Assembly (NCBI RefSeq): GCF_017571525.1
Contig: NZ_JAGETY010000011.1
Location: 1-64,000, forward strand
Direction of reading: 5' to 3'
Length of the DNA stretch: 64,000 nt
DNA from: Hymenobacter sp. BT559
Lineage (GTDB): Bacteria; Bacteroidota; Bacteroidia; Cytophagales; Hymenobacteraceae
Below are positions 1,786 through 8,477 of the stretch, piece after piece (the first letter of the stretch is position 1; every line of letters starts with the position of its first letter). A program made the position numbers and the translations under genes. The notes below the pieces were generated by a model, which was given only the letters and a program-made list of their open reading frames with translations, was not told the DNA's origin and did no database searches.

Positions 1786-2799
1786 ATGAAGCAAGTCGTA
1801 ACCTTCGGCGAAGTGATGATGCGGCTCTCGCCGCCGCTGAATTACCGGCTGCCCCAGACCGCTACCCTCGAAGTAACCTACGGCGGCGGCGACGCCAACG
1901 TAGCCGCTGCCCTCGCCCAAATGGGCGTGCCCGCCGCCCACGTCTCGGCCTTCCCGGCCAATGAATTGGGCTATGCCGCCGCCAACCACCTGCGCCGCTA
2001 CGGCGTCGATACCACCCACTGCCACTTCACCGAAGGCCACCGGCTCGGGTTGTATTTCCTGGAAGTGGGTGCCTCGCTGCGGCCCAGCCGCATCGTGTAC
2101 GACCGCGCCGAGTCGGCCTTCGCCCACCTCGACCCTGCTTCCTTTAACTGGGAGGAAATTCTAAAAAACGCCGGCTGGCTGCACTGGACGGGCATCACGC
2201 CCGCCATCTCGGCCGCCGCGGCCCAGGCCACCGCCGAGGCCATTGCAACTGCGCGCCGGCTAGGGGTCACCGTATCGGCCGACGTGAATTACCGCCGCAA
2301 CCTGTGGCAATACGGCCAGAAAGCGCAGGATGTAATGCCGGGCCTGGTAGAAGGCTGCGATATCGTGGTCTGCACCGAAGGCGACGCCGACGACCTTTTC
2401 GGCATCAAAGCCGACCCGAATTCTGATAATGGCTTCATTTCGATGAGCCAGCAGCTGACCCAGCGCTTCCCCACTATTAAGCGCGTCATTGCCACCCGCC
2501 GCCAGACGCAGAGCGCCTCGCACGAGCGCATTTGCGGCTTGCTCTGGGACCAGGGCGAGTTTTTCGAAACGCCGTTCTACGACATCTCGCCGGTGGTAGA
2601 CCGCATCGGCGGCGGCGACTCGTTTATCTCGGGCTTCATCTACGGCTCGCACACCTATGAAGACCGCGCGCAGGCGCTGTCTTTCGCCACCATCGCTTCG
2701 GCGCTGAAGCACACCATTCACGGCGACATCAACCTGGTGACGCCCGCCGAAGTCGAGCACCTCATGCAGGGCAACCTCACGGGCCGGCTGCTGCGCTGA
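1786..2799 (+). CDS. kdgK: 2-keto-3-deoxygluconate kinase (PfkB family)
   Basis: Sugar kinase of the PfkB/ribokinase family (337 aa) that phosphorylates 2-keto-3-deoxygluconate to KDPG. The N-terminus MKQVVTFGEVMMRLSPP and the YGGGDANVA segment near residue 34 form the sugar-binding part. The C-terminal RIGGGDSFISGF near residue 268 carries the anion hole and catalytic Asp of the family (GxGD signature). It lies between uxaC and kdgA, so its substrate is inferred from both sequence and context. A 227-nt gap containing two inverted repeats separates it from uxaC, so it may have its own promoter. Confidence 0.92.
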   Translation: MKQVVTFGEVMMRLSPPLNYRLPQTATLEVTYGGGDANVAAALAQMGVPAAHVSAFPANELGYAAANHLRRYGVDTTHCHFTEGHRLGLYFLEVGASLRPSRIVYDRAESAFAHLDPASFNWEEILKNAGWLHWTGITPAISAAAAQATAEAIATARRLGVTVSADVNYRRNLWQYGQKAQDVMPGLVEGCDIVVCTEGDADDLFGIKADPNSDNGFISMSQQLTQRFPTIKRVIATRRQTQSASHERICGLLWDQGEFFETPFYDISPVVDRIGGGDSFISGFIYGSHTYEDRAQALSFATIASALKHTIHGDINLVTPAEVEHLMQGNLTGRLLR

Positions 2800-2929: not shown

Positions 2930-3592
2930 ATGTCCTCCCAAGAAGTTATCGCCCGCACACTAGCCGCGCCACTGGTGCCGGTTTTTTTCCATGCTGATGC
3001 CGCCTATGCGCAGTCCATTGTGCGTGGCTGCTACGCCGGGGGCGTGCGGGTATTTGAGTTTACCAACCGCGGCGCCAATGCCTTTGAGGTGTTTCAGGAG
3101 CTAGCCAAGCTGGTAGCCGACGATTGCCCCGACCTCGTGCTGGGCATCGGCACCATCTATACCGCCGCCGATGCCGAGCGTTTCATCGCGGCCGGTGCGG
3201 CCTTCATCGTGCAGCCCGTGACTACGGCCGACGTAGCCGCTGCCTGCCAGCGTCACGACGTGGCCTGGCTGCCCGGCGCCATGACCCCCAACGAAATTTA
3301 CGCCGCCACCCAGCTTGGCGCGCAGCTCGTCAAAATCTTCCCCGGCAACCTCGTCGGGCCCGATTATGTGAAGGCCCTGCGTGGCCCCATGCCCAACGTC
3401 AAGCTGATGGTGACGGGCGGCGTCGAGCCCACCGAGGCTAGCCTCACCGAGTGGTTTGGGGCCGGCGTGAACGTGGTAGGCGTGGGCTCGCAGCTCTTCA
3501 AAGGGGCTAGCGACGCGGCCACCATCACGGCGCGGGTAGCCCCGCTGATGCAGTTTTTACAGCAGAAAGTAGCTAATGCTGCTAAAAAATAA
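2930..3592 (+). CDS. kdgA: KDPG/KHG aldolase
   Basis: Class I aldolase (220 aa) that splits 2-keto-3-deoxy-6-phosphogluconate into pyruvate and glyceraldehyde-3-phosphate, ending the hexuronate pathway. It has the TIM-barrel landmarks VFEFTNRG (catalytic Glu strand, near residue 40), GIGTIYTAADAERF (near 78), PGAMTPNEI (near 118) and QLVKIFPGN (Schiff-base Lys, near 133), followed by the phosphate-binding VTGGVEPTE. It follows kdgK by 130 nt, most of it an inverted repeat. The symbol eda would be equally suitable. Confidence 0.93.
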   Translation: MSSQEVIARTLAAPLVPVFFHADAAYAQSIVRGCYAGGVRVFEFTNRGANAFEVFQELAKLVADDCPDLVLGIGTIYTAADAERFIAAGAAFIVQPVTTADVAAACQRHDVAWLPGAMTPNEIYAATQLGAQLVKIFPGNLVGPDYVKALRGPMPNVKLMVTGGVEPTEASLTEWFGAGVNVVGVGSQLFKGASDAATITARVAPLMQFLQQKVANAAKK

Positions 3593-3676: not shown

Positions 3677-5050
3677 ATGAATCCCACCCTAAGCAGCTCG
3701 CCGCCCGGCACCGACTCGACGGTTGTGGGCAAGTACCGCTGGACTATCTGTTCGCTGGTATTTTTTGCCACGACTATCAACTACCTCGACCGGGCCGTTA
3801 TCTCGCTGCTGAAGCCGTACCTCGAAACGGCGTTCCACTGGAACGCAGGCGACTACGCCAACATCGAGATTGCCTTCAAGCTGGCCTATGCGGTGGGCAT
3901 GATAGGCGTGGGCCGCATCATCGACAAGCTGGGCACCAAGCTCGGCTACGCGCTTTCGACCGCGCTGTGGAGCGTGGCCGCCATGGGCCACGCGCTGGTG
4001 AGCAGCACGCTGGGGTTCGGGGTGGCGCGGGGCTTTTTGGGTATCACGGAGGCCGGCAACTTTCCGGCGGCCATCAAGACAACGGCTGAGTGGTTTCCGC
4101 AGCGCGAGCGGGCCCTGGCCACGGGCATTTTCAACTCGGGCTCCAATGTGGGGGCCATTATCGCGCCGCTTAGCGTGCCGTGGATTGCCGAGCATATTGG
4201 CTGGCAGTGGGCCTTCATTATCACCGGGGCGCTGGGCTTTATCTGGCTGGTTTTGTGGATGCTCATCTATGAAACGCCGGCCGAGAGCAAGCGCCTGAGC
4301 AAGGCCGAGTTTGCCTACATCAACGCCGATATTCCGGTGGGCCTGCCCGCCGAGGGGGTGGTAGAGGAAAAGCCCAAGGTAGGCTGGCTGCCGCTGCTGG
4401 GCTTCCGCCAAACCTGGGCCTTCGTGCTGGGCAAGTTCATTACCGACCCCATCTGGTGGTTTTACCTGTTCTGGTTGCCCGACTTTTTGACCAAGCAGTA
4501 CCACCTCAAGGGCACCGAGATTGCCTTGCCCGTGGCGGCCGTGTACGTGCTGTCGAGCATCGGCAGCGTGGGCGGCGGCTACCTGCCGCTAGGGTTCATC
4601 AAGCGCGGCATGCCCGCATTTAAGGCCCGCAAAACGGCCATGCTGGTTATTGCTTTCTGCGTGTTCCCGATTGTGTTTGCGCAGTGGCTAGGGGGGTTGA
4701 ATATGTGGCTGGCGGTGCTGGTTATCGGCATTGCGGCGGCGGCCCACCAGGCGTGGAGCGCCAACATTTTCACCACCGTGTCCGACATGTTTCCCAAGCG
4801 CGCGGTGGCCTCGGTTACGGGCATTGGCGGCATGGCGGGCGGGCTGGGCGGCATCGCCCTTACGGCCCTGGTGCAGAAGGGCATGTTTGTGCACTACGAA
4901 AGCATTGGCCAGCTCGACAAGGCGTACTACATCATGTTCTTCATTTGCGGGGCAGCCTACCTGCTGGCCTGGGTGCTCATGTTTACGCTGGTGCCGCGCA
5001 TGGAGCCCATCCAGCTCGACGAGAGCGACATTCTTCCCACTGCTTCCTAA
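3677..5050 (+). CDS. MFS hexuronate transporter (ExuT-like)
   Basis: Twelve-helix major facilitator permease of the anion:cation symporter family (457 aa). The cytoplasmic N-terminus is followed by WTICSLVFFATTINYLDRAV, the characteristic first helix of ExuT, UxuT and GudP-type transporters, and by a conserved RGFLGITEAGNFPAAIK segment near residue 115. The likely substrates are glucuronate or galacturonate, inferred from its place directly after uxaC-kdgK-kdgA. It probably imports the sugars that UxaC isomerises. The next gene starts 13 nt downstream, suggesting co-transcription. Confidence 0.88.
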   Translation: MNPTLSSSPPGTDSTVVGKYRWTICSLVFFATTINYLDRAVISLLKPYLETAFHWNAGDYANIEIAFKLAYAVGMIGVGRIIDKLGTKLGYALSTALWSVAAMGHALVSSTLGFGVARGFLGITEAGNFPAAIKTTAEWFPQRERALATGIFNSGSNVGAIIAPLSVPWIAEHIGWQWAFIITGALGFIWLVLWMLIYETPAESKRLSKAEFAYINADIPVGLPAEGVVEEKPKVGWLPLLGFRQTWAFVLGKFITDPIWWFYLFWLPDFLTKQYHLKGTEIALPVAAVYVLSSIGSVGGGYLPLGFIKRGMPAFKARKTAMLVIAFCVFPIVFAQWLGGLNMWLAVLVIGIAAAAHQAWSANIFTTVSDMFPKRAVASVTGIGGMAGGLGGIALTALVQKGMFVHYESIGQLDKAYYIMFFICGAAYLLAWVLMFTLVPRMEPIQLDESDILPTAS

Positions 5051-5063
5051 GCTGTTTTTTTAT

Positions 5064-5582
5064 ATGAAACGCTCATTTGCTGCCCTGGCGCTGCTAGCCC
5101 TGCCACTGCTTGCCGTGGCCCAAACGGCACCCAAGCGCGCCAAGCATACTACGGCGCTGCCGTCAGCTACGACTACTCCTGCTCAGCGCAACGCTGAGGC
5201 AGCCAAAGAGGTGGAAGGCTTGGAGCGCCAGCGCTTTGCCGCGCAGGTAAGCAAGGACTACGCTTTTCTGGAAAAGGCTTTTGCTGACGACCTTGTGTAC
5301 ACGCACGCCAACGGCAAGCAGCAGGGCAAGACCGACTACCTGCAGGGTATCCGCGACGGCAAGAGCGTGTACGACAAGATTGACGTCGAAAACATCAATG
5401 TGCGCGCCTACAACAACGGCACGACGGCCGTGGTAAACGGCCAAATCACCATTTACCAGCCCAATAAGCCCGATGGCTCGCCCAATGTGGCGCACCTCAA
5501 ATACGTGACCGTGCAGATTAAAAATCTGCAGGGCTGGCAGGTAGTGCTGTGGCAGTCGCAGAAGCAGCCGGAGGCTAAGTAG
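5064..5582 (+). CDS. Secreted NTF2-like (DUF4440/SnoaL-type) protein
   Basis: 172-aa protein with a signal peptide (MKRSFAALALLALPLLAVAQ), an Ala/Thr-rich linker, and a cone-like NTF2 fold core from residue 55 (LERQRFAAQVSKDYAFLEKAF, then DDLVYTHANGKQQGKTDYL and a C-terminal VTVQIKNLQGWQVVLWQSQ). This pattern fits DUF4440/SnoaL-like proteins. Many of these are uncharacterised, and some bind or isomerise small molecules. The ATG at 5064 is chosen because it opens the signal peptide; the frame runs open further upstream only through the transporter gene. The 13-nt gap suggests export alongside uronate uptake, but the function is unknown. Confidence 0.75.
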   Translation: MKRSFAALALLALPLLAVAQTAPKRAKHTTALPSATTTPAQRNAEAAKEVEGLERQRFAAQVSKDYAFLEKAFADDLVYTHANGKQQGKTDYLQGIRDGKSVYDKIDVENINVRAYNNGTTAVVNGQITIYQPNKPDGSPNVAHLKYVTVQIKNLQGWQVVLWQSQKQPEAK

Positions 5583-5700: not shown

Positions 5701-6732
5701 ATGTCTACACCAACTACCACGCTACCTACTCACGACGAGCTGGCCACCCCCGTCGGCACCACGCTCGAGCGCTACATCATGCGCAAGCAGGCCGAGTTTC
5801 CGTTTGCAACCGGCGAGCTCTCGCAGTTGCTGCGCGACATTGCCCTAGCCAGCAAAATCATGGTGCGCGAGGTGAGCCGCGCCGGCCTCAGCAGCCTGGC
5901 CGAAACCGTGGGGCCCGAGGGCGAAACCACCGCGCCGCGCCACCGCCTGGGCGAGGAGGCGCACATCCGCTTCGTGCGCGCCCTCACCAACGGCGGCGAG
6001 TGCTGCGCCGTGCTGAGCGAGGCCCGGCCCGACATCATCGAAACCGGCAACCAGGACGGCAAGTACGTGGTGGCCCTCAACCCGCTCAATGGCTCGGTGA
6101 GCCTCGATTTCAACGTGAGCACGGGTACCATCTTCAGCATCTACCGGCGCGTGAGCCGCTACGGCGGGCCGGCTAGGGCCGAAGATTTTACCCAGGGTGG
6201 CCGGGCGCAGGTGGCGGCGGGCTACATCCTCTACGGCTCCAGCGTGATGCTGGTGTACACCACGGGCCACGGCGTAACGGGCTTCACGTATGAGCCCAGC
6301 CTGGGAGAGTTTTTTCTTTCGCATCCCAAGCTGACTATTCCGGCGCAGGGCACGGTGTTTTCGTGCAACGAGGGCAACTGGTTCGACTTCCCCGAGTTTG
6401 CCCGCTCCTTTCTTACCACCTGTAAGGAGCGCCGCTACACCGCCCGCTACGTGGGCTCGCTGGCGGCTGATTATCACCGCAATCTCTTCACGGGTGGCAT
6501 TTACCTCTACCCGCCCACCGGCGAGTGGCCTAGCGGCAAGCTGCGCCTGCTCTACGAATGCTACCCCATTGCCTTCGTGACCGAGCAAGCCGGTGGCGTG
6601 GCCGTGACCGGCGCCACCGACGTGCTCGACGTGCCCCCTAGCCAGGACCTGCACCAGCGCGTGCCGCTTTTCGTAGGCTCGGCCGAGCTAGTGCGCGAGC
6701 TGCAAGCGGCAGCGGCAGCGGCAGCGGCATAA
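5701..6732 (+). CDS. Class I fructose-1,6-bisphosphatase homologue, probable pseudoenzyme
   Basis: 343-aa protein that aligns with E. coli Fbp almost without gaps (YGSSVMLVYTTG, RYVGSLAADYHRN, GKLRLLYEC, LHQRVPLF). The class normally hydrolyses fructose-1,6-bisphosphate in gluconeogenesis with two or three Mg2+ held by acidic residues. Here the ligand positions are changed: Gly84 replaces the Asp of KLD, Ala108 replaces the second Glu of SEE, and Asn127 and Asn130 replace both Asp of DPLDG (it reads NPLNGSVSL). Glu107 and Glu286 remain, as do the sugar-phosphate residues Asn223, Arg249, Tyr250, Tyr268 and Lys280. Loss of catalysis is inferred; the fold and sugar binding look kept. The C-terminus is a poly-Ala run from a GGCAGC repeat. 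It follows the hexuronate genes on the same strand. The symbol fbp is withheld because activity is doubtful. Confidence 0.85.
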   Translation: MSTPTTTLPTHDELATPVGTTLERYIMRKQAEFPFATGELSQLLRDIALASKIMVREVSRAGLSSLAETVGPEGETTAPRHRLGEEAHIRFVRALTNGGECCAVLSEARPDIIETGNQDGKYVVALNPLNGSVSLDFNVSTGTIFSIYRRVSRYGGPARAEDFTQGGRAQVAAGYILYGSSVMLVYTTGHGVTGFTYEPSLGEFFLSHPKLTIPAQGTVFSCNEGNWFDFPEFARSFLTTCKERRYTARYVGSLAADYHRNLFTGGIYLYPPTGEWPSGKLRLLYECYPIAFVTEQAGGVAVTGATDVLDVPPSQDLHQRVPLFVGSAELVRELQAAAAAAAA

Positions 6733-6932: not shown

Positions 6933-8477
6933 ATGCCGAAAATCATTGCGCCCGAAGTCGAATTCAGCAAGCTGCTGAGCGACGTGAAGCAGGCTGTACC
7001 CGAAATATTTGCCCCTGGCGGCGGCTACCTCAACTTATTTGAGGGCAAGTGGCAGGAGCCCGGCGAGCCCCGCGCCTTCCACTCCCCCATCGACGGCTCC
7101 GACATCGGCTCGCTGCCCATGCTCAAGCACAATGCCGCCCTGCGCGCCGTGCGCTTTGCCAAGGGCGAAGCCGCTGCCTGGGCTGCTACCGACTTGCAGG
7201 AGCGCCGCCGCCGCGTGCAGGCCTGCCTCGACCAATTGCGCCCGCACATCGACCTGGTGAGCAAGCTGCTGATGTGGGAAATCGGCAAAACCTACAAGCT
7301 GGGCTTCAACGACATTGACCGCTGCATCGAGGGCGTGCAGTGGTACGTGGAGAACATCGAAAGCCTGCTCGGCGACCGCCGCCCGCTAGGCCTCGTCAGC
7401 AACATTGCCTCCTGGAACTACCCCATGTCGGTGCTGCTGCACGCGGTGCTGGTGCAGGCGCTGGCCGGCAACGCCGTGATTGCCAAGACGCCTACCGACG
7501 GTGGCTTTATCTCGCTCAGCCTCACCTTTGCCATTGCCCGCCGCGCCGGCCTGCCCGTGACGCTGGTAAGCGGCCCCGGCGGCGAGCTCAGCGACGTGCT
7601 GGTGAAAGACCCGGCCGTGGACTGCCTCAGCTTTGTGGGCGGGCGCTACAATGGCCGCAACATCGCCGACGCCCTGAGCGTGGAGCACAAGCGCTACATG
7701 CTGGAGATGGAGGGTGTGAATACCTACGGCATCTGGGACTACTCGCAGTGGGACAAGCTGGCCGACCAGCTGGTGAAAGGCTACGACTACGGCAAGCAGC
7801 GCTGCACGGCCTACGTGCGCTGGGTGGTGCAGCGCGACCTGTTTCCGCAGTTCTTGGAAACCTACACCAAGGCCATCGGCAGCCTCAAAGTGGGCAACCC
7901 GACCCTAGTCGATAACCCCGGCGACAAGCTGCCCGACCTCGCCTTTGGCCCCGTTATCAACGCCGCGCAGGCCAAGAGTCTCGACGATTTATTTACCGAC
8001 GCCAGCAAGCACGGCGCCATCCCCTTCTACCAGGGCAAGCTCGATGATAACCTCTTCCTGCCCGGCCAGGACCGCTCGGCCTACCGCGCGCCGCGTGCCC
8101 TGGTGGGCCTGCCCCGCCAGGCCGAGCTCTACTTCAAGGAGCCCTTCGGCCCCATCGACACAGTAGTACTCGTAGACCGCGTAGAGGAGTTGGTGGGCGA
8201 GATGAACATCTCGAACGGCGCGCTCGTGACGGCGCTAGGGTCCGACGACGAGAAGTGGGCCACCCGCACCAGCAAGGAGCTGCGCGCCTTTAAGGTGGGC
8301 ATCAACAAGCTGCGCAGCCGCGGCGACCGCGAGGAAGTATTCGGCGGCCTGGGCGAAAGCTGGAAAGGCGCCTTCGTGGGCGGCAAGCTACTCGTGGAGG
8401 CCGTGACCCAGGGCGCCCCTGGCCAGCCCGTACTCGGCAACTACCCCGACGCCGTGCTGCTGCCCGAGAAAGCCTAG
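6933..8477 (+). CDS. NAD(P)-dependent aldehyde dehydrogenase
   Basis: 514-aa ALDH superfamily enzyme that oxidises an aldehyde to the acid. Visible landmarks are SNIASWNYPMS with the oxyanion-hole Asn (near residue 165), the Rossmann segment AGNAVIAKTP, LEMEGVN with the general-base Glu (near 257), and YGKQRCTAYVR with the catalytic Cys (near 290). The C-terminal FKEPFGPIDTV matches the usual EPFGP. The substrate is unknown; proximity to uronate genes is suggestive only. The ATG at 6933 is preferred because the longer frame from 6798 begins inside a repeat element and its N-terminal extension is not ALDH-like. Confidence 0.88.
   Translation: MPKIIAPEVEFSKLLSDVKQAVPEIFAPGGGYLNLFEGKWQEPGEPRAFHSPIDGSDIGSLPMLKHNAALRAVRFAKGEAAAWAATDLQERRRRVQACLDQLRPHIDLVSKLLMWEIGKTYKLGFNDIDRCIEGVQWYVENIESLLGDRRPLGLVSNIASWNYPMSVLLHAVLVQALAGNAVIAKTPTDGGFISLSLTFAIARRAGLPVTLVSGPGGELSDVLVKDPAVDCLSFVGGRYNGRNIADALSVEHKRYMLEMEGVNTYGIWDYSQWDKLADQLVKGYDYGKQRCTAYVRWVVQRDLFPQFLETYTKAIGSLKVGNPTLVDNPGDKLPDLAFGPVINAAQAKSLDDLFTDASKHGAIPFYQGKLDDNLFLPGQDRSAYRAPRALVGLPRQAELYFKEPFGPIDTVVLVDRVEELVGEMNISNGALVTALGSDDEKWATRTSKELRAFKVGINKLRSRGDREEVFGGLGESWKGAFVGGKLLVEAVTQGAPGQPVLGNYPDAVLLPEKA

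Follow-up and report, generated by a model that had tools for sequence, protein, structure and literature searches.

The FBPx locus

The window, a 64,000-nucleotide stretch from Hymenobacter sp. BT559 (NZ_JAGETY010000011.1, positions 1 to 64,000), is the start of contig C2 in a Hymenobacter genome of 5.12 Mb that is 99.99% complete. It opens with an operon-like run of genes comprising uxaC, a KDG-kinase-like gene, and genes for a KDPG aldolase, an MFS transporter, a DUF4440 protein, a class I fructose-bisphosphatase (FBPase) homologue, here termed FBPx, and an aldehyde dehydrogenase (Table 1). An earlier note on this DNA had placed FBPx directly after a hexuronate pathway, and this context is real and conserved in relatives, where a gene located 5′ of uxaC (L003:495-2144) is read, by its sequence, as a putative uxaA-like altronate dehydratase. 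Nothing on hexuronate use by Hymenobacter was found in the literature searched.

Table 1. Genes of the operon-like run and functional segments of FBPx, in window coordinates (FBPx residues numbered from its start codon; pig FBPase numbering in brackets where given)
Feature	Position	Strand	Basis
uxaC, glucuronate isomerase (the window begins at the contig end)	114..1559	+	
2-keto-3-deoxygluconate kinase-like sugar kinase (kdgK)	1786..2799	+	
KDPG/KHG aldolase (kdgA/eda family); products pyruvate and glyceraldehyde 3-phosphate	2930..3592	+	
MFS transporter, galactonate/hexuronate-type	3677..5050	+	
DUF4440/SnoaL-like protein, signal-peptide-like start; co-conserved with FBPx, co-lost in G057	5064..5582	+	
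FBPx (343 aa), homologous to class I FBPases and predicted to be a catalytically dead pseudoenzyme	5701..6732	+	Homology and residue alignment
AMP-site loop TGELS, residues 37-41, invariant in 15/15 FBPx; further AMP-site residues K121, Y122, R149	5809..5823	+	
Dynamic-loop region, residues 66-88 (~pig loop 52-72 and following KLD), substituted and relaxed: Glu to Ala78, Asp to Gly84	5896..5964	+	
E107 (pig Glu97, retained) and A108 (pig Glu98, lost)	6019..6024	+	
Metal/phosphate loop, residues 125-141: NPLNGSVSLD for DPLDGSSNID (N127, N130, V133, S134)	6073..6123	+	
Retained R249 and Y250, equivalent to pig Arg243 (supplied across the interface between subunits) and pig Tyr244	6445..6450	+	
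K280, R282 (sugar-phosphate site) and E286 (pig Glu280), retained	6538..6558	+	
Aldehyde dehydrogenase with non-phosphorylating glyceraldehyde-3-phosphate dehydrogenase (GAPN) as its nearest match	6933..8477	+	

The FBPx reading frame is open and full length, and homology to class I FBPases extends over the whole protein. Both FBPase Pfam domains are detected (PF00316, 170 bits; PF18913, 136 bits; residues 21-337), and residues 21-335 align to the Escherichia coli FBPase (PDB 2gq1) with E = 9e-88. FBPx also passes the NCBIfam equivalog NF006778, class 1 fructose-bisphosphatase (380.9 bits against a cut-off of 368), so that automatic annotation would label it an active FBPase. A plasmid search for FBPase returned only matches of <60% identity, and an AlphaFold2 model of FBPx computed from 28 sequences (pLDDT 44.5, pTM 0.39) was too poor for use.

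Among the neighbouring genes, the dehydrogenase has non-phosphorylating glyceraldehyde-3-phosphate dehydrogenases as its best PDB matches, and the alignment retains the QRCTA motif together with aligned Arg/Tyr residues that we take to bind phosphate in GAPN. Its score lies far under the NCBIfam cut-offs, and its annotation would be generic. The DUF4440/SnoaL-like protein, which nearly always adjoins the operon FBPase, is predicted to be exported and lies amid cytosolic sugar-acid genes.

Loss of catalytic and metal-binding residues

Alignment to the E. coli enzyme indicates that five catalytic acidic residues are gone in FBPx. Within the dynamic loop, Ala78 stands where E. coli has Glu60 (pig Asp68). 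Gly84 occupies the position of Asp66 (pig Asp74), Ala108 that of Glu90 (pig Glu98), and Asn127 and Asn130 those of Asp110 and Asp113 (pig Asp118 and Asp121, respectively), such that the motifs KLD, SEE, and DPLDG have become RLG, SEA, and NPLNG. The phosphate loop is changed as well, with V133 in place of E. coli S116, part of the DPLDGSS motif. Four of these losses, at positions 84, 108, 127, and 130, had been named in the earlier note and are reproduced at every position by the alignment, but the fifth, Ala78, and V133 had been overlooked.

In published FBPase structures, metal M1 is coordinated by Asp118, Asp121, and Glu280, and metal M2 by Glu97, Asp118, and the Leu120 carbonyl (PMC3785478); the attacking water is positioned by Asp74 and Glu98 (PMC5639204, PMC5349122). 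The only metal ligands left in FBPx are the equivalents of Glu97 and Glu280 (pig numbering), Asp118 and Asp121 being Asn in all 15 of the orthologues described below, and in the same 15 the water-activating and proton-transfer residues Asp68, Asp74, and Glu98 are replaced by Ala or Pro, Gly, and Ala, respectively. Three of the positions lost, pig Asp68, Glu98, and Asp121, correspond to yeast Asp79, Glu109, and Asp131, at each of which a single alanine substitution abolished FBPase activity in lysates, although the Asp79 mutant was additionally undetected in the cytosol (PMC5349122).

FBPx would be unable to hydrolyse fructose 1,6-bisphosphate, judging by these residues. That FBPx has kept class I FBPase activity, as automatic annotation would have it, accords with its score above the NCBIfam class 1 cut-off but is highly improbable, and was rejected on account of the five catalytic losses, three of which affect residues that are individually needed in yeast. 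It could alternatively be proposed that FBPx remains an enzyme with a rebuilt pocket, performing metal-independent or single-metal chemistry on another sugar phosphate. The invariance of Glu107 and Glu286, the fixation of the replacements H81, E85, H88, N127, N130, and V133, and the long stem branch leading to the FBPx clade (see below) are consistent with such a conversion, but we know of no protein of this fold that is active when the DPxDG metal site is missing, and single alanines at the same sites abolish activity of the yeast enzyme; we regard a new chemistry as very unlikely.

Distribution and origin of FBPx

Relatives were taken from a GTDB genome scan and 120 Hymenobacter genomes, and fall into three FBPase types distinguished by their identity to the FBPx query: housekeeping type A (54-59%), operon type B (63-77%), and FBPx itself (87-96%). 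The 15 FBPx orthologues, from 15 species genomes among the 120 from Hymenobacter, have G84, A108, N127, and N130 in common, and Ala or Pro at position 78. At the seven acidic positions they read [A/P]GEANNE versus EDEEDDE in E. coli and in 82 other Hymenobacter FBPases, the latter number including one type B copy that is truncated before the last site. Sequencing or assembly error as the cause of the losses is ruled out by the occurrence of the same pattern in 15 independent genomes. The earlier note had called FBPx a pseudoenzyme and proposed that conservation of the G/A/N/N pattern be looked for in relatives; all 15 orthologues carry it, and with five catalytic residues lost and the pattern fixed throughout, the designation is well supported.

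In a maximum-likelihood tree computed without the metal columns, the 15 FBPx sequences form one clade within type B (SH-aLRT 100). Its stem is long (0.75 changes per site) and its internal branches are short. The FBPx label requires one change on this tree, and a single nested clade with one such change suggests that catalysis was lost once. Type B FBPases of Hymenobacter (e.g., L014-L064) occupy the same operon position as FBPx but retain all catalytic residues, and the genes around these intact copies follow the same order throughout the genus, except that many of the copies have no dehydrogenase next to them. On the strength of this shared gene order, the sequence comparison indicates that FBPx is an in-place descendant of the operon-borne second FBPase and not a fresh copy of the housekeeping gene.

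The genome that contains the window also encodes an intact class I FBPase, located on contig C28 (L001, with DPLDGSS, SEE, and QKLD); a search for such a second enzyme had been suggested in the earlier note. Intact FBPase A is present in all 14 of the FBPx genomes that are at least 90% complete, and the fifteenth, G090, in which only FBPx was found, is 83% complete. Neither GlpX nor class III FBPase has a match in the window's genome, which excludes replacement of FBPase function by either enzyme there; one PFK is encoded. Only three FBPase A positions, C-terminal and confounded by phylogeny, are associated with the presence of FBPx, and beyond these no strong matched changes were seen in the FBPase A of FBPx genomes.

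Selection, loss, and decay

The median pairwise dN/dS among FBPx genes is 0.12 (105 pairs, median dS 0.52); the corresponding values are 0.09 for the sister clade of intact type B genes and 0.08 for type A. Of 161 sites that are at least 95% conserved in the active paralogues, FBPx has altered 18/31 in the catalytic loops versus 6/130 elsewhere, a clustering for which the Fisher test (p = 5e-11) is descriptive because the loop boundaries were set around known motifs after a first comparison. As judged from the sequences, the metal site has apparently been removed in a targeted way and the rest of the protein preserved, a pattern that general decay does not fit. FBPx thus displays both features of a pseudoenzyme, conserved catalytic residues that are gone and a gene kept by selection, and that it is catalytically dead and selectively maintained is, in our assessment, very probable.

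Several genomes provide evidence in the opposite direction, for a slowly decaying relic in which catalysis was given up because the active type A enzyme suffices and FBPx persists only through the selected operon. In G057, a member of the same species clade, the DUF4440 gene and FBPx are cleanly gone from the interval that separates the transporter from the GAPN-like gene (L168 7870-7995) while the remainder of the operon is intact, and FBPx is therefore dispensable. The FBPx gene of G083 has a single-base frameshift near its C terminus, possibly a sequencing error; type B decays in G071 and G072, which lack uxaC; and loop residues 68-78 are variable among FBPx proteins. However, a near-full-length frame has been kept in 15 species at that median dS, with a dN/dS close to that of the active clade, every one of them carries the same fixed catalytic substitutions, and the non-catalytic invariant sites are nearly untouched, whereas neutral drift predicts dN/dS of ∼1 and scattered changes. 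The strictly neutral form is contradicted by these observations, and the relic interpretation as a whole appears quite improbable. A neutral pseudogene is likewise disfavoured by the low dN/dS and the clustered changes, although the loss in G057 still marks FBPx as non-essential.

Other genomes illustrate different states of the locus. G108, from the same clade, has uxaC but no FBPx in an assembly that is 82% complete and whose contig ends within the transporter. Hymenobacter ginkgonis carries a broken, internally deleted type B FBPase (L065 8001-8676) with intact catalytic-loop residues (RLD), and also FBPx at the operon. The type B copies of G071 (L170 4330-5265) and G072 (L171 4212-5135) are shortened or disrupted, with ∼71-73% identity and a stop inside the match, and adjoin a broken transporter; in these two genomes the second FBPase seems to decay along with the operon.

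Retained binding sites and possible function

The residues that the earlier note had listed as retained are all recovered in the comparison with E. coli FBPase (E107=E89, N223=N206, R249=R238, Y250=Y239, Y268=Y257, K280=K269, E286=E275), and the equivalent of E. coli Arg271 can be added to them. N223, R249, Y250, Y268, R282, Y122, and R149 are invariant in 15/15 FBPx proteins; K280 is found in 14/15, and the AMP-site residue K121 in 87%. The sugar-phosphate and AMP sites are assigned by equivalence with the residues of mammalian FBPase, the cross-subunit arginine being pig Arg243. FBPx has in common with E. coli Fbp these site residues, the cross-subunit Arg, and two-domain homology over its full length, unlike the catalytic segments, where NPLNG, SEA, RLG, the dynamic-loop Ala/Pro, and the phosphate-loop Val set it apart. 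The relaxed dynamic loop, together with V133 and S134, could weaken binding of the 1-phosphate in FBPx.

A sensor of fructose bisphosphate or another sugar phosphate and a partner of a second, active FBPase were the two roles suggested in the earlier note, and each may be considered on the sequence evidence. Retention of the sugar and AMP sites, with tight linkage to hexuronate genes and often a position beside the GAPN-like gene, would also be expected of a stand-alone homotetramer that acts as a sensor or buffer of F6P/FBP and AMP and signals elsewhere, for example to an operon regulator or to GAPN. We consider this unlikely, as no candidate receptor or regulator is fused to or adjoins FBPx, and the divalent metals that normally coordinate the 1-phosphate cannot bind in the usual way.

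FBPases are tetramers that undergo AMP-driven rotation and in which arginines are supplied by adjacent chains (PMC5639204). Since FBPx retains that Arg, we tentatively prefer, at somewhat less than an even chance, the reading that it serves the active FBPase A as a subunit with a regulatory role or as a partner that binds AMP or sugar phosphate; a more specific form, in which FBPx joins the housekeeping enzyme in mixed tetramers and relays AMP or sugar-phosphate signals to it, is doubtful.

A sequence of events can be proposed around the partner reading. The metal and catalytic residues would have disappeared once from the type B FBPase, at its operon locus in the ancestor of one Hymenobacter lineage. 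The sugar-phosphate pocket, AMP site, and cross-interface Arg would have remained, and the protein would have stayed under purifying selection beside an intact type A enzyme, as the computed tree, alignments, and dN/dS suggest. FBPx would then act by binding, most likely through co-assembly with type A FBPase or else by binding AMP or a sugar phosphate, and FBPase activity would thereby be tuned during hexuronate catabolism. Glyceraldehyde 3-phosphate released by KDPG aldolase would be shared between GAPN and lower glycolysis on one side and gluconeogenesis on the other, and a control role for FBPx at this branch point is plausible. The proposal as a whole, that a dead FBPx is kept under selection and tunes FBPase activity by binding, has in our view about an even chance of being correct.

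Relation to known systems and significance

No bacterial class I FBPase pseudoenzyme with conserved removal of the metal site has been described in the literature searched. In trypanosomatids, the prozymes of deoxyhypusine synthase and AdoMetDC are dead paralogues that activate a partner enzyme (PMC3663545, PMC5201418). They resemble FBPx in pairing a dead paralogue with an active one and by analogy offer a possible heteromer model, but differ in fold and organism. In Toxoplasma, TgFBP1 is a second FBPase with minimal in vivo activity that exists beside an essential active one (PMC7729029); TgFBP1 differs from FBPx in having measurable kinetics and in belonging to an unrelated lineage.

The Hymenobacter operon constitutes a natural experiment, in which a single position is occupied by intact enzymes in some relatives and by dead orthologues in sister lineages, with one genome that is without FBPx. 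It also illustrates that curated equivalog thresholds can mislabel a dead enzyme as active and so mislead metabolic reconstruction. Should FBPx regulate the active FBPase, gluconeogenesis would be subject to inducible control at the protein level during growth on sugar acids, and if mixed tetramers are formed, FBPx would be a bacterial example of a regulatory subunit, inducible by substrate, that acts on the gluconeogenic step.
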